This document shows positions 24,657 to 42,351 of a stretch of 43,069 bases of DNA, piece after piece; position 1 is the stretch's first letter, and the number at the start of each line of letters is the position of its first letter. Position numbers and translations under genes: made by a program. The notes beneath the pieces were generated by a model. That model saw only the letters and a program-made list of their open reading frames with translations. It was not told the origin of the DNA and did not search any database. This DNA is from Frankiales bacterium (lineage in GTDB: Bacteria > Actinomycetota > Actinomycetes > S36-B12 > CAIYMF01): positions 1 to 43,069 of the forward strand of contig WGLY01000014.1 of assembly GCA_016125335.1 (NCBI GenBank), read 5' to 3'.

Positions 24657-24657
24657 G

Positions 24658-25887: not shown

Positions 25888-25901
25888 CCCGCTCCTCCTG
25901 C

Positions 25902-27394: not shown

Positions 27395-27419
27395 GTGTCT
27401 CCTCCTGTGTCGCCGTCCG

Positions 27420-28181: not shown

Positions 28182-28217
28182 GCGAGCTCCAAGGTGGGTC
28201 GTGGGGGGAGCGCCGGC

Positions 28218-29294
28218 TCAGGCCTGCGCGCGCAGGGACGGGTGCCAGGGTAGGAGGGTCGGCAGCTCGAAGATCCCGGGTGGTGCCTGGCAGACGACCG
28301 GGATGGCCGCCACGACCGGTGCGGCGGTGGCGTACTGCTCGGCGCGCGTCAGCCGGCCGTCGGGGTTGGGCGGCTCGGTGAGGTCGATCGACATGCGGAT
28401 CCCCGGGACGCCCTCGACCTCCACGGTCCACAGGTGGAAGTCCTCGAACCCGGGCAGGTCGCGGTCCATGATCCAGTTGATCGACAGCGTGAGGAAGCGG
28501 CGTCCGTCCACGATCGCGTGCCAGCGCCAGCAGGTGCCGGCCACCGTGCCGGGCTCGATGACGCCGGCCCGCACCTCGAGGCGGCGCGTGGCCGGGAACA
28601 TCTCGTGGTCCGGCTCGATGCGCTCGACCTGCACGCCGATGCTGTCGGTCGCGTAGCGGATCGCCTCGGAGAACAGCGTGGCGTAGAGCGTGGGCAGCGG
28701 GCCGTCGAGCAGGGCGGGCGAGGCGGGGTCGGACCCCATGCCCATCACGTCGAAGACGAACTCCGGGCTCGGCATGCCCGAGGCCTCGACCACCTCGCGC
28801 ACGGTGATCGACCGGACGTCGAGGCACATGCCGGTGGCGGTCAGGGCGAGCCGCTCGAGCACCACGCCCGGGTTGATGCCGGTGCCGAACAGGGTGACGC
28901 CGCCGCGGCGCGCCGCGGACGCGAGCAGCTCCTCGCGCTCCGGGCCGTGCGCGCGGGGGTAGTGCTGGCCCTGCGTCGTGATGACGTTCTTGCCGGACTC
29001 CAGCAGCGCGAGGATCTCGGCGTCGCCGGACTCGTAGGGGACGCCGATCCGCGCCGTGTGCAGCACGACGTCGGCGTCGAGGGCGAGGATCTCGTCGAGG
29101 TCGTGGGTGGCCAGCACCCCGGTGGGCTCGCGGCGCGCGATCTCGCCGGCGTCCTTGCCGACCTTGCGGTCGGAGTAGACGTAGAGGCCCACCAGCTCGA
29201 GGTCCGGGTGGTCGAGCACCGCGCGCAGCGTGGTCTTGCCGACCGCGCCCGTCGCCCACTGGACGACGCGCCAGGGCCGCCCGGCGTCCGTCAC
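28218..29294 (-). CDS. DapB-like NAD(P)-dependent oxidoreductase
   Basis: A 358-residue protein with a Rossmann start WRVVQWATGAVGKTTLRAVL and a dihydrodipicolinate-reductase-like N-domain (VLHTARIGVPYESGDAEIL, NVITTQGQHYPRAHG, LFGTGINPGVVLERL). Length and C-domain differ from true DapB (about 250 residues), so lysine synthesis is unlikely. Relatives include 2,4-diaminopentanoate dehydrogenase and many mycobacterial lipid-locus proteins of unknown function. The GTG start overlaps the thiolase stop (GTGA), placing it second in the operon. What it reduces or oxidises cannot be stated. Confidence 0.75.
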   Translation of the reverse strand: MTDAGRPWRVVQWATGAVGKTTLRAVLDHPDLELVGLYVYSDRKVGKDAGEIARREPTGVLATHDLDEILALDADVVLHTARIGVPYESGDAEILALLESGKNVITTQGQHYPRAHGPEREELLASAARRGGVTLFGTGINPGVVLERLALTATGMCLDVRSITVREVVEASGMPSPEFVFDVMGMGSDPASPALLDGPLPTLYATLFSEAIRYATDSIGVQVERIEPDHEMFPATRRLEVRAGVIEPGTVAGTCWRWHAIVDGRRFLTLSINWIMDRDLPGFEDFHLWTVEVEGVPGIRMSIDLTEPPNPDGRLTRAEQYATAAPVVAAIPVVCQAPPGIFELPTLLPWHPSLRAQA

Positions 29295-30505
29295 GAGCCG
29301 CTCCCCAGCCGCTCGACGACCAGTGCCGTGGCCAGCCCGAGGGCGGCCGGGATCGTGAGCACGGCGTACCGTCCGCCGGTGCGCTCGAGGGCGTCCATCG
29401 CCGTCGCGAGCAGGATCCCGCCGCTGGCCCCGAGCGGGTGCCCCATGGAGACCGCGCCGCCGTCGACGTTGACGATCTCGTCCGCGAAGCCGAACGCCCG
29501 CTGCACCAGCATCGGGCTGACCGAGAACGACTCGTTGGCCTCCACGATGTCGACGTCGTCCGCGCCGATGCCCGCGGCCTTGAGCGCCCTTCCGATCGCG
29601 TCGACCGTGGCGGTGAGCAGCGGCGAGCGCACTCCGGCGGTGGCGGCCGACAGGATCCGGGCCCGCGGCTCGCGGCCGAGCAGGTCGGCCGCGCCCCGGG
29701 TGGCGATGACGGCGGCGGACGCCGCGTCGACCATCTGCGGCGCGGACGCGGCGGTGTGCACGGGGCGGAAGCCGCCGAGGCCCAGCCGCCGCTCGACCCG
29801 GGCGTGGGCCACCGCGTCGTCCGGGAACAGCAGCGGCATCGCCTCGAAGTCGGCCAGGGTCATCTGCGGACGGATGGCGTCGTCGCGCGCGAGCACCACC
29901 TCGCCGGACGCGTCCCGCACGGGGACGACGCTGCGGTCGTAGTGGCCCTCGGCCCAGGCGGCGGCCGAGCGCTGGTGCGACCGCAGGGCGTAGGCGTCGA
30001 GCTCGGGCCGGTCGAGCCCCACGACGTGGGCGGTGGCGTCGGCGGAGACCCCGATCGTCACGAACCCGGTGAGGTCGGCGAGCGCCTCGTCCTGCTCGAT
30101 GGCCGGCCGGTCGGAGAGCATCGGCACGCGCGACATGGACTCGACGCCGCCCGCCACGGTGATGTCGGCCATGCCGCTGGACACCTGCGCGCAGGCGGCG
30201 GCGATCGCGTCGAGGCCGGAGCAGCACAGGCGGGAGACCACGGATCCGGACACCTCGTCGGGCCAGCCGGCGGCGATCACCGCGGACCGCGCGATGTCGG
30301 CCGCCTGGTCGCCCACGACCGAGCTGACCCCGAGCACGACCTCGTCGACGTGCACGCCGCGCTCGGCGAGGCCGAGCCGCGTGTCGAGCTCGGTGAGCAG
30401 GCCGGCGGCCAGCGTCCACGGGGGCACGCCGGCCAGGACGCCGCCGTCGCGGCGCACCCGGCCGCGCGGGGTCCTCACGGCGTCGTACACGTAGGCGTCG
30501 AGCAC
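29291..30505 (-). CDS. Thiolase-family protein lacking C-terminal catalytic Cys
   Basis: The 404-residue thiolase is the first gene of a seven-gene operon. The acylated cysteine is present in VVSRLCCSGLDAIAAA, and NESFSV and GGAVSMGHPLGASGG (catalytic His) follow. The last motif is unusual: thiolases end with CxGGG/CIGGGQG, but here the segment reads VLTIPAALGLATALVVER, without cysteine, so the base needed for ordinary thiolysis is missing. It may act as an altered condensing or lyase enzyme, or be inactive. It starts at GTG 30505; the promoter with shared motif site A lies 75-100 bp upstream. Confidence 0.85.
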   Translation of the reverse strand: MLDAYVYDAVRTPRGRVRRDGGVLAGVPPWTLAAGLLTELDTRLGLAERGVHVDEVVLGVSSVVGDQAADIARSAVIAAGWPDEVSGSVVSRLCCSGLDAIAAACAQVSSGMADITVAGGVESMSRVPMLSDRPAIEQDEALADLTGFVTIGVSADATAHVVGLDRPELDAYALRSHQRSAAAWAEGHYDRSVVPVRDASGEVVLARDDAIRPQMTLADFEAMPLLFPDDAVAHARVERRLGLGGFRPVHTAASAPQMVDAASAAVIATRGAADLLGREPRARILSAATAGVRSPLLTATVDAIGRALKAAGIGADDVDIVEANESFSVSPMLVQRAFGFADEIVNVDGGAVSMGHPLGASGGILLATAMDALERTGGRYAVLTIPAALGLATALVVERLGSGS

Positions 30506-30578
30506 GGTGACTCCCGTCAGTCGACGTCGCCCGCAGGTCGCGCACGGGCGCGCGGTGTCGGGGCGAGGTAGGTCTTCA

Positions 30579-30607
30579 TTACTACAACAAACAGTGTTGC
30601 CAGTCAA
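30579..30607 (-). promoter_or_regulatory. Operon promoter with shared motif site A
   Basis: On the minus strand TTGACT (30602-30607) and TAGTAA (30579-30584) are 17 nt apart, a good promoter for the thiolase operon. The shared sequence occupies spacer and -10 (30580-30600): GCAACACTGTTTGTT followed by GTAGTA. Within it CAACA and TGTTG form a perfect inverted repeat around 5 nt. Confidence 0.55.
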
Positions 30608-30713
30608 CGGTCCGCCCGGGGTCCTCGGTCGGCCGCGGGCGGGGGCGGCCCGTGTGCCACGCTGGGCGCCGCGTGCCGCCCGGACGCACGCTGCACCGAC
30701 CCAGGAGGTTGCG

Positions 30714-31472
30714 ATGACCGACACCCGGTTCGAGGGCCGCACCGCGATCGTCACCGGTGCCAGCCGCGGCATCGGCCTGGCGGTGGCCGCGCGCATCGTG
30801 TCCGGCGGCGGCCGGGTGTGCATCACGGCCCGCAACGCCGACGCCCTCGCCGAGGCGGTCGAGTCGCTCGGCGGTCCGGACCACGCGATGGCCGTCGCCG
30901 GCAAGGCCGACGACCCCGACCACCGGGCCGAGGCCGTGGCCCGCACGGTCGAGACGTTCGGCAGCCTCGACGTGCTCGTGAACAACACCGGCATCAACCC
31001 GGCCGCCGGCCCGCTGCTCGACCTCGACCTCGGCGCGGCCCGCAAGATCCTGGAGGTGAACGTCGTCTCCGCGCTCGGCTGGGTGCAGCAGGCCCACCGC
31101 GCCTGGATGGCCGAGCACGGCGGCACCGTCGTCAACGTCGCCTCCGTCGCCGGCCTGCGCCCCGCCGCCGACATCGGCTTCTACGGCTCGAGCAAGGCGG
31201 CGCTCATCCACCTCACCCAGCAGCTGGCCGCGGAGCTCGGCCCGGGTGTGCGGGTCAACGCCGTCGCGCCGGCGGTGGTCAAGACGCGCTTCGCGACGAT
31301 GCTGTTCGAGGGGCACGAGGACGAGGTCGTGGCCCGCTACCCGATGCGCCGGCTCGGCGAGCCCGACGACGTCGCGGGCGCCGTGGCCTACCTGGCCTCC
31401 GACGAGGCCTCGTGGGTCACCGGGCACGTGCTGGTCGTCGACGGCGGCCTCACGCTGAGCGGCGGCGTGTAG
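30714..31472 (+). CDS. SDR-family oxidoreductase
   Basis: A 252-residue classical SDR: VTGASRGIGLAVAARI, NNTGINPAAG (Thr replacing Ala in NNAG), Ser in VNVASVAGLRP, FYGSSKAAL with Tyr-Lys, and closing VTGHVLVVDGGLTLSGG. AGGAGG precedes ATG 30714. It is divergent from the thiolase operon across a 208-bp region containing motif site A, and is followed 54 bp later by another SDR on the same strand. It is likely an NAD(P)-dependent hydroxyl/ketone oxidoreductase; substrate unknown. Confidence 0.9.
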   Translation: MTDTRFEGRTAIVTGASRGIGLAVAARIVSGGGRVCITARNADALAEAVESLGGPDHAMAVAGKADDPDHRAEAVARTVETFGSLDVLVNNTGINPAAGPLLDLDLGAARKILEVNVVSALGWVQQAHRAWMAEHGGTVVNVASVAGLRPAADIGFYGSSKAALIHLTQQLAAELGPGVRVNAVAPAVVKTRFATMLFEGHEDEVVARYPMRRLGEPDDVAGAVAYLASDEASWVTGHVLVVDGGLTLSGGV

Positions 31473-31526
31473 CGCAGGACGCCCGGGCACGGGCACGAGG
31501 CGGTCACCGCGGCGGAGGAGGTCGGC

Positions 31527-32318
31527 ATGAGGGTCCAGGGCGCCATCACCCTGGTGACGGGAGCGGGCAGCGGCATCGGCGCCGCCCTGGCACGGCGCTT
31601 CGCGGCCGAGGGGGCCGAGCACGTGGTCGTGGCCGACCGCGACGCCGGCGCGGCCGCACGGGTGGCCGAGGAGGTCGGCGGCACCGCGGTCACGGTCGAC
31701 GTGCGCGACCCGGACGCCGTTCGGCGGATGGTCGAGGCCACCCTCGAGCAGCACGGACGCGTCGACCTGCTGTGCTCCAACGCCGGGATGGCCACCGGCG
31801 CCGGGCTCGACGACCCCGCCGCCTGGCAGGCGGCGTACGAGGTCCACGTGATGGCGCACGTGCACGCGGCGCACGCCGTGCTGCCGTCGATGCTCGCGCG
31901 GGGGAGCGGCCACCTGCTCAGCACCGCGTCCGCGGCCGGGCTGCTCACCTCCCCGGGCGACGCCCCGTACGCCGTCACCAAGCACGCCGCAGTGGCGCTG
32001 GCCGAGTGGCTCGCCGTCACCTACGGCGGCCGCGGCATCGGCGTGAGCGTGCTGTGCCCCATGGGGGTCGACACCCCGCTGCTCGCCGAGCCGCTGGCCG
32101 CGGGCGACCAGTACGCGCGCGTGGTGGCCGCCTCCGGAGCGGTGATCGGCGTCGACGCCGTGGCCGACGCCGTGATGGACGGGCTCGGCCGCGACGCGTT
32201 CCTCATCCTCCCCCACCCCGAGGTCGCCACGTTCTGGGCGCAGAAGGCGGCCGACCCGGAGCGCTGGCTGTCCGGCATGCGCCGTCTCGTCGACGCGTGG
32301 ACCGCCGAGGGGACCTAG
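31527..32318 (+). CDS. SDR-family oxidoreductase
   Basis: A 263-residue SDR: VTGAGSGIGAALARRF, SNAGMATGAG in place of NNAG, catalytic Ser in LLSTASAAGLL, APYAVTKHAAVAL with Tyr-Lys, and LCPMGVDTPLL. The C-terminus departs from FabG (PHPEVATFWAQKAADPERWLSG), a feature of steroid- or terpenoid-type SDRs in mycobacterial catabolic clusters. Strong GGAGGAGG before ATG 31527. Probably cotranscribed with the preceding SDR. Confidence 0.88.
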   Translation: MRVQGAITLVTGAGSGIGAALARRFAAEGAEHVVVADRDAGAAARVAEEVGGTAVTVDVRDPDAVRRMVEATLEQHGRVDLLCSNAGMATGAGLDDPAAWQAAYEVHVMAHVHAAHAVLPSMLARGSGHLLSTASAAGLLTSPGDAPYAVTKHAAVALAEWLAVTYGGRGIGVSVLCPMGVDTPLLAEPLAAGDQYARVVAASGAVIGVDAVADAVMDGLGRDAFLILPHPEVATFWAQKAADPERWLSGMRRLVDAWTAEGT

Positions 32319-32322
32319 GCAA

Positions 32323-32344
32323 GTAACGCCATTAGTTGTAGCGT
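32323..32344 (+). promoter_or_regulatory. Shared motif site D and -10 element
   Basis: GTAACGCCATTAGTT then GTAGCG (32323-32343) matches the sequence found at four other promoters. TAGCGT (32339-32344) ends 7 nt before an ATG at 32352, suggesting a leaderless transcript that begins with a small open frame. Confidence 0.5.
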
Positions 32345-32351
32345 GCGGCGC

Positions 32352-32411
32352 ATGCCGGAGCCCCGAACCTCGAGCGTCCCCCGTCCCCCCGTCGCCGGGC
32401 CGGCGTCGTGA
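32352..32411 (+). CDS. Putative 19-residue leaderless leader peptide
   Basis: ATG 32352 lies 7 nt after the -10 TAGCGT, so it should be the first codon of the message. It opens a 19-codon frame (MPEPRTSSVPRPPVAGPAS) whose TGA overlaps the GTG start of the next SDR (GTGA at 32408-32411). That SDR has no Shine-Dalgarno site, so ribosomes finishing the small frame would be needed to start it. The peptide is Pro/Ser-rich with no recognised family. Evidence is positional only; conservation is unknown. Confidence 0.4.
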   Translation: MPEPRTSSVPRPPVAGPAS

Positions 32412-33169
32412 GCGCCACCGTGAGCGGTGCCGTCGCGATCGTCTCGGGCGGCAACCGCGGGATCGGGCGCGCGTTCTGCGAGCAGCTCGTCGCGGGCGGC
32501 GCCCAGCGCGTCTACTGCGGCTCGCGCGACCTCGACGCGGTCCCGCAGGAGCTGGTCGACCTCGGCGTCGTGCCGGTGCAGCTCGACATCACCGATCGCG
32601 ACTCCGTGGCCCGCGCCGTGGAGCGGTGCGGCGACGTCACCGTGGTGGTCAACAACGCCGGCCTGCACGGCCGCGACCGCCTCGTGCTGGCGCGCGACCC
32701 CGACATGGCGCGCCAGGAGATGGAGGTCAACTACTTCGGCACGCTCAACATGATCCGCGGCTTCGCGCCGGTGCTCGGGGCCAACGGCGGCGGCGCCATC
32801 GTCAACGTGCTCTCCGTGGCGGGCGCGATCCCCACGGCGTTCATGGGCGGCTACTCGCCGGCGAAGTCGGCCACGCTGTTCCTGTCGATCATCGCGCGGG
32901 CCGAGCTCGAGCCGCAGGGCACCAGCGTGACGGCGCTGGTGGTCGGCTCGGTCGACACCCGCATGGCCGACCACGTGGAGGGCTCGAAGGAGGACCCCCG
33001 CGACATCGCCGCTGCCGGCCTCAAGGCCATGGAGCGCGGCGAGCGCATCAGCGACACCGACCGCATGGCGATCGAGGCGCGCGCCAAGTACGCGCTCGAC
33101 CCGGTCCGCTGGGAGCGCGGGATGGCCAAGGTGATGCGGAGCGAGGCCGCTCCCACGACGGGTCGGTAG
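32408..33169 (+). CDS. SDR-family oxidoreductase
   Basis: A 253-residue SDR: VSGGNRGIGRAFCEQL (a variant of TGxxxGIG), NNAGLHGRDR, Ser in VNVLSVAGAIP, GGYSPAKSATL with Tyr-Lys, then ALVVGSVDTRMADH. The last 60 residues form a helical extension unlike FabG. It is the first full gene of a tightly coupled run (SDR, aldehyde dehydrogenase, oxygenase, SDR, VOC). The stop TAG overlaps the next GTG by 1 bp. Probably oxidises or reduces a carbonyl in the same pathway as the aldehyde dehydrogenase. Confidence 0.88.
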   Translation: MSATVSGAVAIVSGGNRGIGRAFCEQLVAGGAQRVYCGSRDLDAVPQELVDLGVVPVQLDITDRDSVARAVERCGDVTVVVNNAGLHGRDRLVLARDPDMARQEMEVNYFGTLNMIRGFAPVLGANGGGAIVNVLSVAGAIPTAFMGGYSPAKSATLFLSIIARAELEPQGTSVTALVVGSVDTRMADHVEGSKEDPRDIAAAGLKAMERGERISDTDRMAIEARAKYALDPVRWERGMAKVMRSEAAPTTGR

Positions 33170-34893
33170 TGCCGGCCACCACGGGCGAAGCGTCGGCGAC
33201 GTCTCTGTTCGCGCGGCACCGGGACCTGCTCGGCCGCGCCGTCGAGGCCTGCCGCACGCGGCGCAACTGGACGGCGTACCCGGACGACCCGGCCGCGCAC
33301 CCGGCCGGCGAGGAGGGGCGAGCCGCCGCGGAGCAGTGGTTCGGCGGGCAGCTCGGCCGCCCCTTCGACCTCGACCAGCCGGGGCCCGTCGTGGTGCAGG
33401 ACGACGAGGTGTCGCCCTACACCGGTGAGCCGCTCGGGATCTCCTACCCCCGCTCGGACGTGGACGCGCTCGTGGCCGCGGCGCTCGCCGCCTGGCCCGC
33501 GTGGCGCCGCGCGTCGCACGAGGAGCGCGTGGGCGTCTGCCTCGAGGCCTGCGACCGGCTCTACCGCCACAACCTCGAGCTGGCGTACGCCGCCATGCAC
33601 ACCACGGGCCAGAGCTTCCCGATGTCCTACGCCGGCAGCGGCACCAACGCGATCGACCGAGGGATCGAGGCGGTGGCGCAGGCGCACCTGGCGCACGAGC
33701 GCGTCGCCCCGAGCGCCACGTGGTCGCGCGACTTCGGGTCCACCACGGTGCGCCTCGACAAGCGCTACCGGCTGGTGCCGCTCGGCCTCGCCGTGGTGAT
33801 CGCGTGCGCGAGCTTCCCCGCGTGGAACGCCTACCCCGCGGTGCTGGCCAACCTCGTCACCGGCAACCCGGTCGTGCTCAAGCCGCACCCGAGCTCGGTC
33901 CTCCAGATGGCGCTGGCCGTGCGCATCCTGCGCGAGACCCTGGCCGACGCCGGGTTCGACCCGGCGCTGGTGTCGCTGAGCGTCGACTCCGCGGCCGAGC
34001 CGGTCGCCAAGCGGCTGGTGCAACACGAGGCGACCCGGATCGTCGACTTCACCGGCTCGGCGGCGTTCGGGTCGTGGATCGAGCAGAACGCCCGCTCGGC
34101 CCGGGTGTACACCGAGACCTCCGGCGCGAACTTCGTCGTGCTGGAGTCGGTGGACGATCTCGCCCCCGTGCTGCGCGCCGTCGCCGGGTCGCTGTGCCTG
34201 TTCACGGCCCAGATGTGCACGAGCCCGCAGAACGTCTACGTGCCGCGCGACGGCCTGCCCACCTCCGACGGCGTCGTGCCGGCGGAGGAGGTGGCCGCGC
34301 GCCTCGCCGAGGCGGTGCGCGCCATCTCCGGCACGCCGCGCCGCGCCGCGGCGGTGATGGGCGCGGTGCAGGCGCAGTCGACGCTCGAGCTGCTCGCCCG
34401 CGTGCGCGACGAGGTGGCCGCGCGCGGCACCGTGCTGCTCGAGCCGGCGGCGTACGAGCACCCGGAGCACCCCGCGGCGCGCACCAGCGGTCCGCTGCTC
34501 GGGCTGGTCGGGCTCGCCGAGCACGACCTCTTCGCCCAGGAGCAGTTCGGGCCTGTGGGCTTCGTCGTGGTGGCCGACGACGCGGTGCAGGCGATCGAGC
34601 GGGCCACGCGCGACGCGCGCGAGGTCGGTGCCATCACCGGCTTCGTCTACTCGACCGACGAGCAGTTCGTCGAGCTCGCCGAGGAGCTCAGCGCCGACGC
34701 CGGCGTCGCCCTGTCGGTCAACCTCACCGGCCCGATGCCGCTGAACTTCTCGGCCGCCTACAGCGACTACCACGTCACCGGTCTCAACCCGGCAGGCACC
34801 GCCACGCTCAGCGACGAGTCGTTCATCGCGGGGCGATTCCGCGTGGTGCAGTCCCGGCGTCCCCACGTGGGCGCAGGAGAGGAGGACGCATGA
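33169..34893 (+). CDS. paaN: PaaN-type aldehyde dehydrogenase
   Basis: The 574-residue protein matches the PaaN family of long aldehyde dehydrogenases: LFARHRDLLGRAVEA and WTAYP near the start, PFDLDQPG, EVSPYTGEPLGISYPRSDVDALVAAA, MHTTGQSFPMSYAGSG, then the core VIACASFPAWNAYPAVLANLVTGNPVVLKPHP. Catalytic Glu is in ETSGANFVVLE and the nucleophile Cys in FTAQMCTSPQN. PaaN was named from phenylacetate clusters, but no paaABCDE, paaG or paaK lies here, so it probably oxidises another aldehyde, plausibly one made by the oxygenase encoded next. The GTG overlaps the SDR stop. Confidence 0.87.
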   Translation: MPATTGEASATSLFARHRDLLGRAVEACRTRRNWTAYPDDPAAHPAGEEGRAAAEQWFGGQLGRPFDLDQPGPVVVQDDEVSPYTGEPLGISYPRSDVDALVAAALAAWPAWRRASHEERVGVCLEACDRLYRHNLELAYAAMHTTGQSFPMSYAGSGTNAIDRGIEAVAQAHLAHERVAPSATWSRDFGSTTVRLDKRYRLVPLGLAVVIACASFPAWNAYPAVLANLVTGNPVVLKPHPSSVLQMALAVRILRETLADAGFDPALVSLSVDSAAEPVAKRLVQHEATRIVDFTGSAAFGSWIEQNARSARVYTETSGANFVVLESVDDLAPVLRAVAGSLCLFTAQMCTSPQNVYVPRDGLPTSDGVVPAEEVAARLAEAVRAISGTPRRAAAVMGAVQAQSTLELLARVRDEVAARGTVLLEPAAYEHPEHPAARTSGPLLGLVGLAEHDLFAQEQFGPVGFVVVADDAVQAIERATRDAREVGAITGFVYSTDEQFVELAEELSADAGVALSVNLTGPMPLNFSAAYSDYHVTGLNPAGTATLSDESFIAGRFRVVQSRRPHVGAGEEDA

Positions 34894-36356
34894 CCGCGAC
34901 CGACCGCCCCGTGCTGGCCGCCGCGTCGATGACCGACCCGGACAACCCCTACACGCTGGGCGTCTACGCACCCGTGGACGCCGAGCTCACCGCCGACGAC
35001 CTCACGGTGATCGGCGAGCTTCCGCGCGACCTCAACGGCGTCTACCTGCGCACCGGCCCCAACCGGCGCTTCGCCGCCCCCGGCCGCTACCACATGTTCG
35101 ACGGCGACGGCATGGTGCACGCGGTGCACTTCGAGGACGGCCGGGCGCGCTACCGCAACCGGTGGGTCCGCACGAAGGCGTTCGAGGCCGAGTCCGAGGC
35201 CGGCCGCGCGCTGTGGACCGGGCTCATGGAGAACCCGCAGGGCAACCCGTTCGGCAACACGCACGGGCTGGGCATCAAGGACTCGGCCAACACCGACGTC
35301 ATCTACCACCGCGGCCAGGTGCTGGCGACGTGGTACCTCTGCGGCTCGCCCTACGGCGTCGACCCGCTGTCGCTGGAGACCCTCGGGGCGCAGACGTTCC
35401 TCGACACGTTCTACGGCGACATGATGGCGCACCCCAAGGTGGACGACGCCACGCACGAGCTCATGTGGTTCGACTACGGGCCGGACCTGCCCTACCTGCG
35501 GTACGGCGTCATCGGGGCCGACGGCCGCCAGACGGACCTGGTGCACATCGACATCCCGGGCCCGCGGCTGCCGCACGACATGGCGATCACGGAGAACTAC
35601 TCCGTCCTCATGGACCTGCCCCTCGTGCAGGACCAGGAGGCGCGCGCGGCAGGCAAGTACCGGATCTACTACGACCAGGCGCTCGTGAGCCGGTTCGCCG
35701 TCATCCCGCGCCACGGCACGGCGGAGCAGGTGCGGTGGTTCGAGGCCAAGCCCTGCTACATCTACCACGTCATCAACGCGTGGGAGTCCGGCGACGAGAT
35801 CGTGATGGACGCCTGCCGGGTGAAGAACCCGCAGCACCAGACCACGTTCGCCACGCCGCTGTCGAACATGCTCGCCTACATGCGGCTCGACGCCCAGCTC
35901 TACCGCTACCGCTTCGACCTGCGCACCGGCCGCACCACCGAGACCGCGCTCGACGACGACAACATCGAGTTCCCGTCGGTGGACGCCCGGGTGGTCGGGC
36001 TCCCGCACCGGTACTCCTACTCCATGCGGCTGGCCGCCGAGCCGACGCTGCTCTTCGACGGCCTCGTGCGCTACGACTCGCAGGAGGACGTCAAGCAGGA
36101 GCACTTCTTCGGCCCGGGGCGCTGGGGCTCCGAGGCGCCGTTCGCCCCGCGCGACGGCTCGACCGGGGAGACCGACGGCTACGTCGTGTGCTTCGTGACC
36201 GACGAGCGCGAGGGCACGGCCGAGGTGGACGTGTTCGACGCGACCGACATCGCTGCGGGCCCGCTGGCCCGCGTGCTCCTGCCCGGCCGGGTCCCGGCCG
36301 GGTTCCACGCCTGCTGGGTCAGGGGCGAGCAGCTGCAACAGGACGGAGTCCGCTGA
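34890..36356 (+). CDS. Carotenoid/lignostilbene cleavage oxygenase
   Basis: The 488-residue protein belongs to the RPE65/carotenoid oxygenase family of non-haem iron enzymes that split C=C bonds to two carbonyls. The start GVYLRTGPNRRFAAPG and HMFDGDGMVHAV is typical. The four iron-binding histidines are present: His181 (MMAHPKVDD), His229 (LPHDMAIT), His293 (YHVINAW) and His473 (GFHACW). Its ATG overlaps the aldehyde dehydrogenase stop (ATGA), so the cleavage product, an aldehyde, is probably passed to PaaN. The substrate could be a stilbene, apocarotenoid or phenylpropenoid; the sequence does not decide. Confidence 0.92.
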   Translation: MTATDRPVLAAASMTDPDNPYTLGVYAPVDAELTADDLTVIGELPRDLNGVYLRTGPNRRFAAPGRYHMFDGDGMVHAVHFEDGRARYRNRWVRTKAFEAESEAGRALWTGLMENPQGNPFGNTHGLGIKDSANTDVIYHRGQVLATWYLCGSPYGVDPLSLETLGAQTFLDTFYGDMMAHPKVDDATHELMWFDYGPDLPYLRYGVIGADGRQTDLVHIDIPGPRLPHDMAITENYSVLMDLPLVQDQEARAAGKYRIYYDQALVSRFAVIPRHGTAEQVRWFEAKPCYIYHVINAWESGDEIVMDACRVKNPQHQTTFATPLSNMLAYMRLDAQLYRYRFDLRTGRTTETALDDDNIEFPSVDARVVGLPHRYSYSMRLAAEPTLLFDGLVRYDSQEDVKQEHFFGPGRWGSEAPFAPRDGSTGETDGYVVCFVTDEREGTAEVDVFDATDIAAGPLARVLLPGRVPAGFHACWVRGEQLQQDGVR

Positions 36357-36357
36357 C

Positions 36358-37353
36358 ATGGACCGCGCGCAGGCCGACGCGATCGACGCCGAGGCGACCG
36401 CCGACGACAAGGTGAGCTTCAGCCGCCTCGGGTACGAGATGCGGCGTCCCACCTGGGACGACTCGGACATGAGCCACGTCGCCGGGCGCACGGTCGTCAT
36501 CAGCGGCGTGACCTCCGGGCTCGGCCGCGCGGCGGCCGAGGGCTTCGCCGCGCTCGGGGCGCGCGTGGTCATGCTCGCCCGCGACGGCGCCCGCGCGCAG
36601 GCGGCCCTCGAGGAGATCGAGCAGGCCACCGGCAACCACGACCTGCGCGTGATCGTGTGCGACCTGTCGTCGATGGCCTCGGTGCGCCGGGCGGCCGAGG
36701 AGATCCTCGCCACCGAGCCGCAGGTGCACGTGCTGGTGAACAACGCCGGCGTGCTGCTCAACGAGCGGCTGCTGTCCGAGGACGGCTACGAGCTCGTCCT
36801 CGCCACCAACCTGCTCGGGCCCTTCCTGCTCACCGAGCTGCTCCTCGACCGCATCGTCGCGAGCGCGCCCTCGCGCATCGTCGAGGTGTCCTCCGGCGGC
36901 ATGTACAGCCAGCGGATCGACGTCGAGGACCCGCACACCGAGCACCGCGAGTTCATCGGCACCGCCGTGTACTCGCGCACCAAGCGCGGCCAGGTGATCG
37001 TCACGGAGATGCGCGCCGAGCGCCTGGCGGGCACCGGCGTCGTGTGCCACTCGATGCACCCGGGGTGGGCCGCGACCCCGGGGGTCTCGTCGTCCATCCC
37101 GGAGTTCGAGGCCAAGTTCCGCGACGTGCTGCGTACGCCGGCGCAGGGCGCCGACACCATCGTGTGGCTCGGCTCGGCCGACGAGCCGGCCACCACGTCG
37201 GGCCAGTTCTGGCTCGACCGCCGCCCGCGCGAGACCCACCGCACCGACGCCACCCGCGAGACCGACGCCGAGCGCGCCGCGCTGTGGGAGCTGTGCACCA
37301 CCCTCACCGGGCTCGCGGACCCCGCCGCTTCCCTCGACGGCCAGGAGGCCTGA
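36358..37353 (+). CDS. SDR-family oxidoreductase, retinol-dehydrogenase/DHRS-like
   Basis: A 331-residue long SDR. About 45 residues precede the nucleotide motif ISGVTSGLGRAAAEGF; NNAGVLLNERLLSEDGYELVLATNLLGPFLL is the pattern of the DHRS12/retinol-dehydrogenase-like branch. The catalytic segment is VEVSSGGMYSQ, followed by AVYSRTKRGQVI with Tyr-Lys and HSMHPGWAATPGV. These enzymes act on lipophilic alcohols and ketones, which fits a neighbouring carotenoid-type oxygenase. It begins one base after the oxygenase stop. Confidence 0.88.
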   Translation: MDRAQADAIDAEATADDKVSFSRLGYEMRRPTWDDSDMSHVAGRTVVISGVTSGLGRAAAEGFAALGARVVMLARDGARAQAALEEIEQATGNHDLRVIVCDLSSMASVRRAAEEILATEPQVHVLVNNAGVLLNERLLSEDGYELVLATNLLGPFLLTELLLDRIVASAPSRIVEVSSGGMYSQRIDVEDPHTEHREFIGTAVYSRTKRGQVIVTEMRAERLAGTGVVCHSMHPGWAATPGVSSSIPEFEAKFRDVLRTPAQGADTIVWLGSADEPATTSGQFWLDRRPRETHRTDATRETDAERAALWELCTTLTGLADPAASLDGQEA

Positions 37354-37354
37354 C

Positions 37355-38068
37355 ATGCCCGAGACCCCCGCGCTGCCCCAGGTGCGCCAGCTCGTCTTCC
37401 TGGCCGCCGACCTCGACGCCACGCTCGCCGACGCGCGCAGCGGGCTCGGCCTGCGCCAGGGCATCAAGGACGAGCAGGGCATGGCCGACCTCGGCTTCGT
37501 GCACGAGGTGCTCACCATCGGCTCGACGTTCCTGGAGTTCACCGCGCCGCTCGGGCCGGACACCATGCCGGCCCGGCTGCTCGCCAAGCGCGGAGGCGAC
37601 CTCGGCTACATGGTCGTGGTGCAGGTGGACGACGCCGAGCGCACCAAGAAGCGGGCGCTCGACCGCGGGCTCACGCTGGTGATGGAGACCCCGTACGAGG
37701 GGCACACGATCACGCAGTGGCACCCGCGCGGGCTCGGCACCCTCGCGGAGTTCGACCAGATCCGCCCGGCCGACTCCTGGCACTACGCGCCGCGCGTGTT
37801 CGAGACCGGGTGCACGGACGTCGTCGGCGACTACACCGCCGTGGAGCTCGCCGTGCGCGACCCGCACGCCGTCGCCGCCACGTGGGCCGACGTCCTCGAG
37901 GTGGAGGTCGCAGCCGACGGCGTCAGCCTCGACCTGCCGGGCGCGGCGCTGCGCTTCGTGCCGACGGACGGGGCCGAGGGCCTGGTCGCCGTGGAGCTGC
38001 CGGCGACCGACCGCGCCCAGGCGGGCCGCACCGTGCGACTGTCCGGCGTCGACTTCCGGCTGGTGTGA
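37355..38068 (+). CDS. VOC-superfamily (glyoxalase-like) protein
   Basis: A 237-residue protein with two beta-alpha-beta-beta-beta VOC modules: the first from VRQLVFLAADLDATL to VHEVLTIGSTFLEFTAPLG with LGYMVVVQVDD, the second from CTDVVGDYTAVELAVRDP onward. Candidate metal ligands include His50 (VHEVL), Glu59 (LEFT) and His near GHTITQWHP, though pairing is uncertain. It resembles glyoxalase-like and extradiol-type folds used as isomerases or hydrolases in catabolism. It is the last gene of the coupled run, starting 1 bp after the SDR stop and ending 14 bp from a convergent patatin gene. Confidence 0.82.
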   Translation: MPETPALPQVRQLVFLAADLDATLADARSGLGLRQGIKDEQGMADLGFVHEVLTIGSTFLEFTAPLGPDTMPARLLAKRGGDLGYMVVVQVDDAERTKKRALDRGLTLVMETPYEGHTITQWHPRGLGTLAEFDQIRPADSWHYAPRVFETGCTDVVGDYTAVELAVRDPHAVAATWADVLEVEVAADGVSLDLPGAALRFVPTDGAEGLVAVELPATDRAQAGRTVRLSGVDFRLV

Positions 38069-38082
38069 GGACGGCGCCCGTC

Positions 38083-38904
38083 TCAGGCCAGGAGGGCGCG
38101 CACGCGGGCGGCGGCCCCCCGGCCCTGCCGGCGTCCCTGCTGCGCCGCGGCGAGGGTGACCCGCGGGTCGAGGGGGTTGGGCCCGAAGGCCGCCTGCGAG
38201 CCGGCGTCGGCGGCCACCACCTCGACCGCGGAGCCCTCGCCGAGGCGCTCGATCTCGCGGGCGATGCCACCGCCGAGCTCGGGCAGCAGCGGCGCGAGCA
38301 CCACCGCCCGGGTGCAGGGCGCCGCGGCCGGGAGGTTGGTGGGCGAGAGCACAGATCCGTCCATGAAGTGCTCGCCGTCGATCACCACGGTGGGCCACAC
38401 CGAGGGCACGGCGCAGCTCGCGCCCACGGCGTCGAGCCACTCCACCCCGCAGTCGCGGTCGAAGGTCACGAAGCGCCCGGTGTCGGCGCTCACAGCCGTG
38501 ACGAGCACCTCCCCGGGCGGCCAGTCCTGCCGGCCGGCGAGCACGGCGATCTCCTCGCGGCGCTCGGCCGGGTCCATAGTGGTGGCGGCCTTGGCCGCGT
38601 CGCCGATGCGCCTGCGGGCGTCCTGCGCCGAGGACGCGCCGGCGGCCGAGCGGGCCCAGCCGGCGGCCACCTCGGCGAAGTCGATCGACGGCGGGCGCAG
38701 GGCCGCGACGTCGGCGAGACCGCTCTCGAGGTCGCCGTCCGCGGGCCGGCTCCGCCGTCCCGCGAGCAGCGAGCCCGCCGAGGTGCCCACCACGCGGAGC
38801 CCGTCGGGCAGCAGCACGCCCTCGTCCGCGAGCCCGGCCAGCACGCCCGTCTCCCAGCCCAGGGCGGCGCTGCCGCCGGCCCCCAGCACCAGTGCCACGC
38901 TCAT
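38083..38904 (-). CDS. Patatin-like phospholipase
   Basis: The 273-residue acyl hydrolase has LVLGAGGSAALGWETGVLAGL (oxyanion loop), nucleophile VVGTSAGSLLAG (GxSxG) and the dyad Asp in HFMDGSVLSPTNL. The Ser-Asp dyad cleaves acyl chains from lipids. The C-terminus (RVTLAAAQQGRRQGRGAAARVRALLA) is helical and basic. GAGGAGG precedes ATG 38904. It is divergent from a lipocalin-like gene with only 29 bp between the two start codons, so each promoter must lie within the other gene or the messages are very short-leadered. Confidence 0.9.
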   Translation of the reverse strand: MSVALVLGAGGSAALGWETGVLAGLADEGVLLPDGLRVVGTSAGSLLAGRRSRPADGDLESGLADVAALRPPSIDFAEVAAGWARSAAGASSAQDARRRIGDAAKAATTMDPAERREEIAVLAGRQDWPPGEVLVTAVSADTGRFVTFDRDCGVEWLDAVGASCAVPSVWPTVVIDGEHFMDGSVLSPTNLPAAAPCTRAVVLAPLLPELGGGIAREIERLGEGSAVEVVAADAGSQAAFGPNPLDPRVTLAAAQQGRRQGRGAAARVRALLA

Positions 38905-38933
38905 CGCGTCCTCCTCGTCCATCCGGAGCTGCC

Positions 38934-39371
38934 ATGACCCCCGCCGAGTCCGACATCGCCACCGCGCTCGTCGGCACCTGGACCCTGACCGCCTGGACCC
39001 TGTCCGACGCCGACGGCGAGCGCAGCCCGTACGGCGAGGACCCGGCCGGACTGCTCGTGTACGCGCCCGACGGCGGCATGGCCGCGGTGGTGTCCGAGCG
39101 GCGCCGCCCCCTGCTGCCCACGCCGAGCCCGCGCCGGGCCCCGGCCGAGGCCCTCGCGTCGGCCTACCTCGGCAGCTTCTCCTACGCCGGCCGCTGGCGG
39201 GTGGAGGGCGGCGAGGTCGTGCACGCCGTGGAGGTGGCGCAGAACCCCGCGCTCGTGGGCACGGAGCAGCGGCGCACGGTGCTGCTCGACGGGACGGCGC
39301 TCGCGCTGGTGGCGCAGGAGAGCGCGGGCGGCGCGACGCGCACGCACACGCTGCGCTGGCGGCGCGGCTGA
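38934..39371 (+). CDS. Lipocalin-like domain protein
   Basis: A 145-residue protein with the pattern of the bacterial lipocalin-like family: LVGTWTLTAWTLSDADGERSPYGEDPAGLLVYAPDGGMAAVV at the start, then a predicted all-beta remainder (YAGRWRVEGGEVVHAVEVAQNP). Homologues are small ligand-binding barrels encoded in catabolic and secondary-metabolic loci. CGGAG precedes ATG 38934; an upstream in-frame ATG at 38892 lies inside the patatin gene and is unlikely. There is no signal peptide, so it should be cytosolic. Confidence 0.78.
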   Translation: MTPAESDIATALVGTWTLTAWTLSDADGERSPYGEDPAGLLVYAPDGGMAAVVSERRRPLLPTPSPRRAPAEALASAYLGSFSYAGRWRVEGGEVVHAVEVAQNPALVGTEQRRTVLLDGTALALVAQESAGGATRTHTLRWRRG

Positions 39372-39451
39372 CCGCGGCGGCGCGCTCCGGCTGCCCCGGT
39401 GTCGTCCCACGGAGCCCTCCCCACCGGTCGTCGCGCCGGCACGCCGCCGGA

Positions 39452-39494
39452 GTCACTTCGACTATTGCAGTACGACGCCCCTCTCGGCTAGCGT
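39452..39494 (+). promoter_or_regulatory. Shared motif site E and leaderless -10
   Basis: GTCACTTCGACTATT followed by GCAGTA (39452-39472) is a member of the shared motif, and its flank CCGGAGT also matches site B. TAGCGT (39489-39494) lies 8 nt before ATG 39503, and the motif covers the -35 position, so binding would affect hydratase transcription. Confidence 0.45.
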
Positions 39495-39502
39495 CCACGC
39501 GC

Positions 39503-40336
39503 ATGGCAGAGGATCTGGTGCTGCGGTCGGACGAGAACGGCGTCGCGGTGCTCACGCTCAACCGCCCGGAGCGCAAGAACGCGTGGACGATCCCGCTCCA
39601 GCGCCGCTACTACGGCCGGCTCCAGGAGTGCGTCGAGGACGACTCCGTGCGCGCCATCGTGGTCACCGGCGCGGGCTCGAGCTTCTGTCCCGGCGCGGAC
39701 TTCCTCGAGCTGCAGACGTACACGCAGACCGGCGACTTCAACCCGGAGGCGGCCACCATCGAGCAGCCGGACTGGTACCCGATCACCGTCCCCAAGCCGA
39801 TGGTCGCGGCCGTCAACGGCGCGTGCGCCGGGTTCGGCCTCGTGCAGACGCTCATGTGCGACGTGCGGTTCGCGGTGTCAGGCGCGCGCATGTCCACCGC
39901 GTTCGCGCGGCGCGGGCTGCCGGCCCTGCACGCGGCGTCGTACCTGCTGCCGCGGCTGATCGGGGTGAGCCGGGCCACCGAGCTGCTCGTGTCCGGCCGC
40001 ACGTTCACCAGCGACGAGGCAGCCGACATGGGCCTGGTGCACACGATCGTGCCCGCCGACGGCGACGTCGTGGCGGCCGCGCGCGCCTACGCCGAGGACC
40101 TGGCGGCGAACTGCTCGCCGGCGTCGGTCGCGCACATCAAGGAGCAGCTGCGGCACAGCTACGAGCAGACGTTCCTCGAGACGGTCGAGGACGCCGAGGG
40201 CCGCGAGCGCACCGCGCTGTCGTCCTTCGACTTCAACGAGGGCGTGCAGAGCTTCGTCGAGCGGCGCCCGCCGGCGTTCGCCCCCTACGGCAAGGGCGGC
40301 CTGCCGCGCGAGGGGTTCAGCCCAGCCGGGAGCTGA
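39503..40336 (+). CDS. Enoyl-CoA hydratase/isomerase family protein
   Basis: A 277-residue crotonase: VAVLTLNRPERKNAWT, oxyanion segment GAGSSFCPGADFLELQ, VAAVNGACAGFGLVQTLMCDVRFA, then FARRGLPALHAASYLLPRLIGVSRATELLVSGR. The position usually holding a catalytic Glu (VPE) is Ala-Leu here (LPALHA), so it may be an isomerase or other crotonase activity rather than a hydratase. The C-terminus is Pro/Gly-rich. The last 20 bp overlap the end of the convergent LLM gene. No Shine-Dalgarno; probably leaderless. Confidence 0.87.
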   Translation: MAEDLVLRSDENGVAVLTLNRPERKNAWTIPLQRRYYGRLQECVEDDSVRAIVVTGAGSSFCPGADFLELQTYTQTGDFNPEAATIEQPDWYPITVPKPMVAAVNGACAGFGLVQTLMCDVRFAVSGARMSTAFARRGLPALHAASYLLPRLIGVSRATELLVSGRTFTSDEAADMGLVHTIVPADGDVVAAARAYAEDLAANCSPASVAHIKEQLRHSYEQTFLETVEDAEGRERTALSSFDFNEGVQSFVERRPPAFAPYGKGGLPREGFSPAGS

Positions 40337-41303
40337 TGCGCGCCACGGCCTCGAGCGTGTGACGCGCCGCGGGGTCGTCGTCGGTGGCCGACGGCACGAT
40401 CACGACGTCGTCCGCGCCGGCCGCCAGGTACTGCGACAGCCGCTCGGACACGCGCTGCTCGTCGCCCACCAGGCCCACCACCTCGATGAGCTCGGCCGGC
40501 ACCTCGGCCAGCAGCGCCGTGGGGTGCGGCCCGGACAGCGCCAGGTCGACGAGGTCGCCGAACCCCGCGCGGCGGAACATCTCGGAGTAGCCGGGAGCGG
40601 CGAGGTAGCCGACCACACCGCGGCGCAGCTGCTCGATGGCAGCGGGACCGGGGTCGACCGCGCACGTGGTCCACACCGCCACGCGCGGCATCTCGCGGCC
40701 CAGCTCGGCCGCGGTGTCGCGCAGCCGGCCGACCAGCTGCGCCACCGAGGCGGGGTCGACGAGGTTGAGCACCATGCGGTCCGCGTGCCGGGCGGCGACG
40801 CCGATCGCGCGGTCGCCGAAGGCGGCCACGACGAGCTCCGAGCGGGGCGCGTCGAGCCGCAGCCGGTAGCCGCTGGTGCGCACCACCTCGCCGGGCACCT
40901 CGGCCTTCTCGCCGTCGAGGAGCAGCCGCACGGCGCGCGCGGACTCCTCGAGCGCCTGGCCCGGGCGGCTGCGGTCGCGCCCATGCCACCGCTCGACCAC
41001 GAGGTTGGACGACGTCCCGAGGGCCACCGACACCTCGCGGCCGGTGAGCGTGGCCACCGACGCCGCGCCCATCGCGATCATCATGGGGTCGCGGATCGCG
41101 ACGCCGAACGGGCCGAGCACCAGGCGCGCCCGGGACATCCGCCCGCCGATGTGCGTGCCGAGGGCGAACGCGTCCCAGGTCGCCATCTCGCCGACCCACA
41201 CCGCGCCGTAGCCCAGCTCGTCGGCCGCGAGGGCGGTGTCGATGACCTCCGTCGCCGGCCGGTCCTGCCAGAGGCCGAGCGATACCTCGACGCGGGGGCT
41301 CAC
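40317..41303 (-). CDS. LLM-class (F420-dependent type) oxidoreductase
   Basis: A luciferase-like TIM-barrel protein of about 328 residues from GTG 41303, or 351 from GTG 41372; neither start has a clear ribosome site. Marks are IDTALAADELGYGAVWVGEMATWDAF, MSRARLVLGPFGVAIRDPMMIAMGAASVATLTGREVSVALG, YRLRLDAPRSELVVAAFG, ADRMVLNLVDP and IEVVGLVGDEQRVSERL. In actinobacteria this pattern is mostly F420-using rather than FMNH2-using. The substrate is unknown. It is transcribed from a promoter carrying shared motif site B and ends inside the hydratase gene. Confidence 0.85.
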   Translation of the reverse strand: MSPRVEVSLGLWQDRPATEVIDTALAADELGYGAVWVGEMATWDAFALGTHIGGRMSRARLVLGPFGVAIRDPMMIAMGAASVATLTGREVSVALGTSSNLVVERWHGRDRSRPGQALEESARAVRLLLDGEKAEVPGEVVRTSGYRLRLDAPRSELVVAAFGDRAIGVAARHADRMVLNLVDPASVAQLVGRLRDTAAELGREMPRVAVWTTCAVDPGPAAIEQLRRGVVGYLAAPGYSEMFRRAGFGDLVDLALSGPHPTALLAEVPAELIEVVGLVGDEQRVSERLSQYLAAGADDVVIVPSATDDDPAARHTLEAVARISSRLG

Positions 41304-41384
41304 CGGCGTCGTGCCGCTCGGGTGGTCGAGCTCATGCGCGCTCCCTCGTCGTGGGCGTCTCGGTGCATGCACGGACGGTCCTGT

Positions 41385-41414
41385 TTACTACACCAAACGA
41401 AGTAACTCCGGCAA
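41385..41414 (-). promoter_or_regulatory. LLM gene promoter with shared motif site B
   Basis: On the minus strand TTGCCG (41409-41414) and TAGTAA (41385-41390) are 18 nt apart. Motif B (41386-41406) reads GTTACTTCGTTTGGT then GTAGTA. TTACT and AGTAA form an inverted repeat spaced by 11 nt. Confidence 0.5.
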
Positions 41415-41505
41415 GGGCCTGGGCGTCGACGTCCCGGAAGTCGAGACGCCGGGCGCGGACTCGACGACTGGTGCGCCGAATCCCTTGCACGCGATCCCTG
41501 CCACG

Positions 41506-41526
41506 CACTACAACTAACAGTGCTGT
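41506..41526. promoter_or_regulatory. Shared motif site C upstream of DUF1295 gene
   Basis: Read on the minus strand ACAGCACTGTTAGTT then GTAGTG. It ends 18 bp before the DUF1295 GTG and lies about 100 bp from site B in the same divergent intergenic region. Confidence 0.4.
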
Positions 41527-41544: not shown

Positions 41545-42351
41545 GTGGGCGAGGTGTCGTGGGGTCCGCTCGTGGTGGGCCTCGTCGCCGCTGCGGTGGC
41601 GATCTGCGTCCTGATGGGAGTCGTGCTCGCCATCTCGGCGCGCAGCGGCAACTGGTCGATCATCGACACGTTCTGGGGCCTGGGCTTCGTCGCCGTGGCC
41701 ATCACCACGTACGTGATCTCGGCGGGCCACGGTGATGACGGCCGCCGGCTGGTGGCCCTCCTGGTGCCGCTGGTGTGGGGCGTGCGCCTCGCGGCGTACA
41801 TCCACTGGCGCAACCACGGCAAGGGCGAGGACCCGCGCTACACCGCGCTGATGTCCAAGCGGCAGGGGGCGCTGCTCCCGTTCGCCGTGAAGAACATCTT
41901 CTGGGCGCAGGGCTGGGTGATGTGGGTCGTGGCGACGCCGATCGTCGTCGCCATGTACCAGCTCCAGCCGGTCAACTGGCTCACCTGGGTGGGCGTGGCC
42001 CTGGGCGCGTTCGGCATCGTCTTCGAGTCCGTCGGCGACGCGCAGCTCGCCCGCTTCAAGTCCGACCCCGCCAACGCCGGGAAGATCCTCGACACCGGCC
42101 TGTGGGCGTGGACCCGGCACCCGAACTACTTCGGCGACATCTGCGTGATGTTCTCGTTCTGGCTCATCGCGCTGGGGGCGTGGATCGGTGTCGTCACCGT
42201 CGTCGCACCGCTGCTGATGACGCGGATGCTCGTGTCGCGCACGGGCAAGAGGCTCACCGAGAAGCGCATGGCCCGCTCCCGCGGCGACGCCTTCACCGCC
42301 TACGCGGCGCGCACGAGCGGCCTGGTGCCGCGCCCGCCGCGCCGCCCGTAG
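41545..42351 (+). CDS. DUF1295 membrane protein, steroid 5-alpha-reductase-like
   Basis: A 268-residue integral membrane protein with about six helices. The C-terminal part has the DUF1295/steroid 5-alpha-reductase signature: LDTGLWAWTRHPNYFGDICVMFSFW, then a basic tail LVSRTGKRLTEKRM with a final YAARTSGLVP. Such proteins reduce or modify sterol-like or isoprenoid C=C bonds with NADPH; some members act as methyltransferase-like ICMT relatives. AGGAGG precedes GTG 41545. Motif site C lies just upstream and a thiolase gene follows by 58 bp, linking it to the catabolic regulon. Confidence 0.87.
   Translation: MGEVSWGPLVVGLVAAAVAICVLMGVVLAISARSGNWSIIDTFWGLGFVAVAITTYVISAGHGDDGRRLVALLVPLVWGVRLAAYIHWRNHGKGEDPRYTALMSKRQGALLPFAVKNIFWAQGWVMWVVATPIVVAMYQLQPVNWLTWVGVALGAFGIVFESVGDAQLARFKSDPANAGKILDTGLWAWTRHPNYFGDICVMFSFWLIALGAWIGVVTVVAPLLMTRMLVSRTGKRLTEKRMARSRGDAFTAYAARTSGLVPRPPRRP

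Follow-up and report, generated by a model that had tools for sequence, protein, structure and literature searches.

How are the lipid-type catabolic genes on contig WGLY01000014.1 of a Frankiales bacterium controlled? The contig was analysed over its whole 43,069 nucleotides (the window) and belongs to a 3.93-Mb genome. The original prediction described one sequence of about 21 bp repeated in five of its promoters, at sites A to E, and proposed a single regulator for all of them. Here, we confirm that the five repeated promoter sites are real. Very probably, all five are operators bound by a single tandem HxlR protein, whose gene is on another contig (C35) of the same genome. By computation we establish the sites and how far they are conserved, show that they stand upstream of genes and occur together with the regulator gene, and predict the fold of the regulator (from a Rhodococcus rhodnii homolog).

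Re-reading of the sequence placed all five 21-mers at the predicted coordinates and strands. The operator motif has the consensus GTCACTCTGTTAGTTGTAGTA, and all five sites are intergenic according to gene calls and Pfam annotation of the window. See Table 1 for coordinates and scores. Site A lies upstream of a minus-strand run of thiolase, DapB-like, SDR, MaoC, APH, and two acyl-CoA dehydrogenase (ACAD) genes, and site B precedes the gene of an LLM F420-type oxidoreductase. Both carry the predicted −35 hexamers, with A overlapping TTGACT-N17-TAGTAA and B overlapping TTGCCG-N18-TAGTAA. Site D precedes SDR4, PaaN, RPE65, and SDR5, and site E precedes an enoyl-CoA hydratase gene. Placement just ahead of catabolic genes holds for A, B, D, and E but not for C, which sits between the LLM and DUF1295 genes. 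It is ~20 bp from DUF1295, a plus-strand gene, and in its minus-strand reading either points away from that gene or serves the LLM side as a second operator. The −10 of site A also contains an ATG, which opens a 20-codon reading frame (window 30517–30579, minus) that ends just before the thiolase start and is perhaps a leaderless leader peptide.

We performed whole-genome searches using patterns with up to three mismatches. A first, strict pattern gave no match. The scan of the organism's own genome, proposed earlier as a check, gave a divided answer. A degenerate pattern from the five sites matches exactly at only those five places, but with one mismatch it matches 33 further places, coding ones included, and does not exceed its reversed control (228 places in all). 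Allowing up to two mismatches, the short core TTWGTTGTAGTA is also nonspecific, with 35 matches vs 69 in the control. We dropped such loose consensus patterns as specificity tests, as reversed controls match as often or more and many of the places are coding. Because these searches are nonspecific, an alignment of the five sites could not by itself have proved the case. The loose matches are what speaks for the view that the five sites arose by chance or resemble promoters only loosely, in intergenic DNA that is richer in AT. We give that reading almost no credence, as it is contradicted by a de novo motif, an external matrix, simulated windows, and matrix controls in 80 loci of other genomes.

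The de novo motif is an independent check on the five sites. It was derived by expectation-maximisation on 63 thiolase upstream regions of other actinobacteria (66 found, three near-identical ones dropped), with no window sequence included, and reads GTCACTCTGTTAGTTGTAGT. Scanned across the window, it ranks A, C, B, D, and E highest, and the next best position scores −1.6 bits. We also scored the window with an external matrix of 69 distinct sites from other genomes. This test is partly circular because the 69 sites were themselves found with a matrix from the own genome. The next score after the five sites is 3.7 bits, and 150 simulated windows of the same dinucleotide make-up gave three hits of at least 15 bits in total (best 18.1), while the real window gave five. 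Sites A to E are thus the sole strong matches in the window.

Further sites occur in the same genome. The pattern ACTYYGTTWGTTGTAGTA at up to three mismatches gave six matches vs one control match, namely A, B, C, and three new places (Table 1). The highest-scoring own-genome site (38.7 bits, external matrix) lies between the divergent regulator and thiolase genes on contig C35. Two weak candidates on C35, ahead of an AMP ligase gene and an ABC gene, score no better than unplaced own-genome matches (C20:27346–27368, 16.4; L247, 13.4; L037, 12.7), and we kept them as candidates for their position. The ABC-gene candidate was kept though weak because ABC genes of other genomes carry strong sites. 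The C20 match (minus strand, L246) precedes a small gene that has no Pfam match, which leaves the site without a nameable neighbor, and it was not counted.

The candidate regulator gene lies outside the window contig and is divergent from the C35 thiolase gene (Table 1). Its product has two PF01638 stretches in one chain, as do all three homologs scanned (L166, L191, and L227). Each HxlR half is followed by an H-x2-C...C-x2-C motif. These residues are invariant in the 28 rows of protein alignment A2, and some rows of alignment A1 lack the first Cys of the second half. The predicted fold of the L166 homolog from Rhodococcus rhodnii (299-residue model) has two domains, with a pLDDT of 90.8 and a pTM of 0.90. 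Its best solved structural matches are PA1607 and PA1374, followed by YodB and HypR among others. The 16 matched solved sequences are 107–168 residues long with one stretch each, and we file the protein as HxlR by domain, a tandem variant and not a typical member. A nearby TetR regulator had been suggested at first. However, the 40 window open reading frames scanned with Pfam include no DNA-binding regulator, TetR or other.

We next consider how the motif and this gene are distributed. A scan of GTDB genomes with a protein alignment gave 244 regulator relatives, and the best 80 of the 244 were used. Among them are Rhodococcus rhodnii and two Kibdelosporangium species at 65–66% identity, as well as Aeromicrobium, Klenkia, Humibacillus, Janibacter, Mumia, Streptomyces, Actinomadura, Nocardioides, and many mycobacteria. 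At a threshold of 20 bits, a matrix of eight own-genome sites gave 93 hits in 66 of the 80 loci and none with any of the four control matrices, of which three were column-shuffled and one was reversed. At 16 bits, it gave 107 hits in 73 loci vs 1, 2, 2, and 8 in the controls. Of the 98 external sites scoring at least 18 bits, none falls within a tblastn-annotated homologous gene (other genes were unannotated), and for 94, following the site's own direction downstream leads to such a gene within 450 bp. The targets are thiolase (63), RPE65 (10), ABC gene (10), AMP ligase (6), LLM (3), and SDR (2), with none for four.

In several other actinobacteria, homologs of the window genes are clustered with the tandem HxlR gene, with sites at the promoters. 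The gene orders come from tblastn best hits and not from orthology tests, the ACAD, SDR, and thiolase families are large, and locus gene contents were printed for about 48 of the 80 loci. LLM homologs at 59–62% identity have their own site in L177, L181, L190, and L196 (17.2 bits in the last). Homologs of the thiolase (56–58%) and the DapB-like protein (47%) stand in one run behind one site in L227 and L229, and cluster homologs elsewhere match DUF1295 at 49–58% and SDR4 at 59–62% identity. The HxlR gene is divergent from thiolase in the own genome, L166, and L168, stands behind thiolase-RPE65 in many loci, and is divergent from an AMP-ligase run in L227 and L229. Two sites lie between the regulator and thiolase genes in L166 and L168, and one between the regulator and an RPE65-type gene in L167. 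The window contig and contig C35 resemble this cluster divided in two.

The motif had been expected to be conserved in related genomes, and this was true outside the order but not within it. The genus search gave six matches in the own genome (control 1) and seven in ten others vs 58 for the reversed control. The search across the order gave four in the own genome (control 0) and nine in 59 other genomes vs 78. The nearest relatives lack the conserved motif because the regulator is missing there too: a tandem HxlR at E ≤ 1e-30 occurs in one of 166 genomes of the order, namely the window's own. In a phylum sample of 396 genomes, 11 (own included) contain a regulator match at E ≤ 1e-25; besides that of the own genome, seven of these matches span most of the protein. 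In a Mycobacterium-like genus with 5–6 Mb genomes, the gene order thiolase-RPE65-HxlR occurs, with a near-identical site ahead of thiolase (L101–L103) or RPE65 (L104). We searched 158 genomes separately for the site (up to one mismatch; 66 genomes) and the regulator (E ≤ 1e-40; 73 genomes). Both were found in 62 genomes, the site only in 4, the regulator only in 11, and neither in 81 (Fisher p 4e-27, relatedness ignored). In 60 of the 62, the distance between site and regulator is 1.6–3.7 kb, with both on one strand; the remaining two genomes have them on different contigs. A single regulator common to these promoters is thus strongly supported, as the motif is kept ahead of homologous genes outside the own order and tracks one regulator gene.

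The co-occurrence also bears on whether the motif instead serves as operator for some other transcription factor (TetR, MarR, or GntR type) with its gene elsewhere, the HxlR gene being merely a co-regulated member of the cluster. In the Mycobacterium-like genus, the HxlR gene lies within the regulated operon, where linkage alone cannot separate regulator from target, and the fetched loci were chosen by their HxlR gene. We nevertheless consider another factor unlikely, as the HxlR gene stays beside the sites across several gene orders, the 158 genomes show joint gain and loss of site and regulator, and the scanned window frames include no DNA-binding regulator.

Several points weigh against the tandem HxlR as the regulator of sites A to E. 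Binding by this protein, repression, ligand, and substrate are inferred. Raw counts in the 158 genomes at up to two mismatches are 110 for the site vs 319 for the reversed pattern, which also matches in many of these genomes at one mismatch. Because the reversed pattern matches more often, site counts alone are not evidence here, and the weight falls on co-occurrence and position. The co-occurrence is itself partly operon inheritance, since the regulator sits in the operon behind the site in that genus, and 11 of the 73 regulator-bearing genomes have no site at one mismatch. The presence of the regulator in the 80 loci is no evidence by itself because the loci were fetched by the regulator, and seven of them (L172, L189, L197, L198, L201, L211, and L214) have no site at 16 bits. 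Finally, site E is weak in the de novo scan, with the lowest score of the five, and site C and the C35 SDR site face away from their adjoining genes.

What kind of element is the motif? In the 69-site matrix, information is unbroken over positions 4–21, with no free spacer. Only ACT (positions 4–6) and AGT (18–20) are symmetric, pairing in 60, 66, and 64 of the 69 sites; the other eight of positions 1–11 pair in 0 to 24 of 69, and the center is asymmetric. A palindrome, as in HxlR/DUF24 operators, was not found. The operator ends in a −10-like TAGTA, and a TTGAC-like hexamer stands at the −35 position in the own genome and some others. This ending, the kept direction of 94 of the 98 sites, and TTGN located 7 or 8 bases upstream (21 counts among the 98 sites) would suit a promoter class of an alternative sigma factor in place of an operator. 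That is very improbable, as the continuous information differs from the two blocks with a free spacer of such promoters and no −35 block is conserved over all 98 sites. Paired sites, in tandem 23 bp (three cases) or 27 bp apart (five cases) or overlapping and divergent 18 bp apart (three cases), also fit a bound protein better.

Two groups of pairs contain variant sites. The tandem operators 27 bp apart in L173, L178, L180, L185, and L187 have a second member of a distinct TCACACTGTTAATTGAAGTG-like subtype, ahead of ABC or AMP-ligase genes. The overlapping divergent pairs in L195, L224, and L231 are of a GTCACTCTGTCAAYTG-like subtype, lie between a thiolase gene and RPE65, and represent a further type of operator found next to regulators of this family.

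With the tandem HxlR as the regulator, we propose that the single chain, a pseudo-dimer by construction, binds an asymmetric operator of ~21–23 bp with outer arms ACT-N11-AGT, and its two HxlR halves would read the two unlike operator sides. Repression is suggested by an operator that spans TAGTA and the spacer; the bound regulator would cover both and so deny RNA polymerase access to the catabolic promoters and to the region near its own divergent start. Its release is probably triggered by a pathway intermediate, either a CoA thioester or a cleavage product. Autoregulation is likely, as regulator genes lie behind or beside the sites. More broadly, we lean slightly toward a general picture in which a single-chain tandem HxlR with unlike winged helices and Cys motifs reads a directional, asymmetric operator. 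It would govern a widespread, undescribed actinobacterial regulon of carotenoid-oxygenase-type cleavage, CoA ligases, SDRs, F420-type LLM proteins, and thiolases, mostly as one self-regulated operon in mycobacteria and through eight or more dispersed promoters in the window organism. We found no description of this regulator-operator pair or pathway among open-licence papers.

The motif thereby becomes a testable regulator-operator pair in mycobacteria, Rhodococcus, Streptomyces, Aeromicrobium, Kibdelosporangium, and others. It would tie scattered catabolic genes into one pathway around a carotenoid-oxygenase-type enzyme, and the operator allows the pathway genes to be listed in each genome, a route to the substrate. 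A fused HxlR pair on an asymmetric operator would also offer a clean case for studying how direction arises in a regulator that is otherwise a symmetric dimer.

In actinobacteria, the KstR and KstR2 regulons are familiar examples of scattered acyl-CoA and sterol-type catabolic genes under common control. KstR and KstR2 are TetR-family regulators with palindromic operators that seem to be of other sequence than the motif here. Rv3095 of Mycobacterium tuberculosis is an HxlR-type protein. Its overexpression lowers the LLM gene Rv3093c of the Rv3093c-Rv3094c genes, according to PMC9904262. Rv3093c is the namesake of TIGR03841, the family of the window LLM gene; unlike the window regulon, Rv3095/Rv3093c-Rv3094c is a small local cluster. 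Among solved structures, PA1607 (PDB 2f2e, 146 residues) and PA1374 (PDB 4gcv, 168 residues) come closest to one half of the tandem protein; each has one matched stretch vs two in the tandem protein.

Bacillus subtilis HxlR, according to PMC7835342, has one domain per chain and is a dimer and an activator that senses formaldehyde via Cys11-Lys13; the crystal DNA is a perfect palindrome with AGTA/TACT arms, optimised by the authors. The tandem protein shares the PF01638 winged helix, and the AGTA/TACT half-sites are related in letters to ACT/AGT here. The tandem protein differs in having two domains per chain, an asymmetric operator with ACT before AGT, and aligned stretches that are free of Cys up to the first CxxC-type motif region or the end of the first winged helix. 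YodB, CatR, QsrR, and HypR share the family and fold and are structural neighbors of the tandem protein. They are single-domain thiol sensors using Cys6 or Cys7 (Cys5 in QsrR) that repress dioxygenase genes among others, according to PMC6798810. Unlike these proteins as described there, the tandem regulators have no N-terminal sensor Cys in the aligned stretches of A1 and A2, from which the true N-termini were trimmed off. In rows trimmed to the matches, the first Cys is at column 102 or 135 in 16 of 16 A1 rows and at column 106 or 139 in 28 of 28 A2 rows. The lack of Cys in the aligned N-terminal stretch argues against the thiol switch of YodB and CatR.

Table 1. Predicted operators, further sites, and genes of the proposed regulon (window positions unless a contig is given; a tilde and "start approximate" mark approximate ends)
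Feature	Position	Strand	Sequence, basis, or neighbor	External matrix (bits)	De novo motif (bits)
Operator A (predicted)	30578..30600	minus	GCAACACTGTTTGTTGTAGTAAT	36.7	23.8
Operator D (predicted)	32323..32345	plus	GTAACGCCATTAGTTGTAGCGTG	18.6	16.7
Operator E (predicted)	39452..39474	plus	GTCACTTCGACTATTGCAGTACG	20.7	10.3
Operator B (predicted)	41384..41406	minus	GTTACTTCGTTTGGTGTAGTAAA	28.6	20.0
Operator C (predicted)	41504..41526	minus	ACAGCACTGTTAGTTGTAGTGCG	24.3	21.5
New strong site	C35:3005-3022		upstream of SCP2-type thiolase		
New strong site	C3:156478-156495		upstream of APH gene		
New strong site	C35:20939-20956		upstream of SDR gene, reverse direction		
Weak candidate site	C35:1783		ahead of AMP ligase (acyl-CoA ligase); 11.8 bits		
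Weak candidate site	C35:16972		ahead of branched-chain-type ABC gene; 12.1 bits		
Tandem HxlR gene (candidate regulator)	C35:1857 to ~2915	minus	PF01638, E 8.2e-31 (Pfam)		
Thiolase, first behind site A	29291..30511 (start approximate)	minus	Pfam thiolase N and C		
Rest of run behind site A: DapB-like oxidoreductase, SDR, MaoC, APH kinase, two acyl-CoA dehydrogenases	23493..29300	minus	Pfam		
SDR behind site D	32408..33169	plus	Pfam		
PaaN-type aldehyde dehydrogenase/hydratase	33151..34893 (start approximate)	plus	NCBIfam TIGR02288, 592.5 bits (cut-off 578.75)		
RPE65-family carotenoid oxygenase	34950..36356 (start approximate)	plus	Pfam PF03055, 437 bits		
Enoyl-CoA hydratase behind site E	39503..40336	plus	Pfam		
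LLM F420-dependent oxidoreductase behind site B	40317..41372	minus	TIGR03841 (Rv3093c family), 377.3 bits (cut-off 213.65)		
DUF1295 protein beside site C	41545..42351	plus	Pfam DUF1295		

From its gene order, we take the run behind site A to be an operon. A second thiolase-like reading frame, named by eye and in the earlier note, lies downstream of DUF1295 and is cut by the contig end. Judged by family names, a gene set with thiolases, ligases, PaaN, and acyl-CoA dehydrogenases points to a CoA-dependent breakdown pathway. The nearest solved chain to the window RPE65 protein is a carotenoid 9,10-dioxygenase. However, this protein scores far below the cut-offs of the NCBIfam carotenoid- and stilbene-cleaving models.

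Some observations concern other loci. More distant tandem-HxlR genes (37–39% identity) in L105, L106, and L107 are convergent with an LLM-thiolase run, which extends to a second thiolase in L105 and L106 and to PaaN in L106; no site above 8 bits was found in the sequence stretches examined there. A record titled Bifidobacterium breve MAG (metagenome-assembled genome; L217) holds a mycobacterial-type tandem HxlR and a 17.9-bit site and is probably a misbinned contig. The CIRCE/HrcA element is TTAGCACTC-N9-GAGTGCTAA, and GCACTC-N9-GAGTGC is absent from the five window sites. CIRCE-like palindromes TAGCACTC-N9-GAGTGCTA occur next to the tandem-HxlR operon at L091:3117, L092:3098, L093:1462, and L094:1359, with HSP20-family genes beside or downstream in L091–L093. 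We had considered this palindrome (GCACT-N11-AGTGC) as a conserved operator of the four regulator loci and dropped it, as it adjoins the HSP20 genes in L091–L093. In the own genome, a CAACTAA ... TTAGTTG inverted pair in an AT-richer stretch (C25:59794, L058) is perhaps the operator of another regulator. The window also has a CsrA-family gene at 5534–5752, in a G+C-rich genome.

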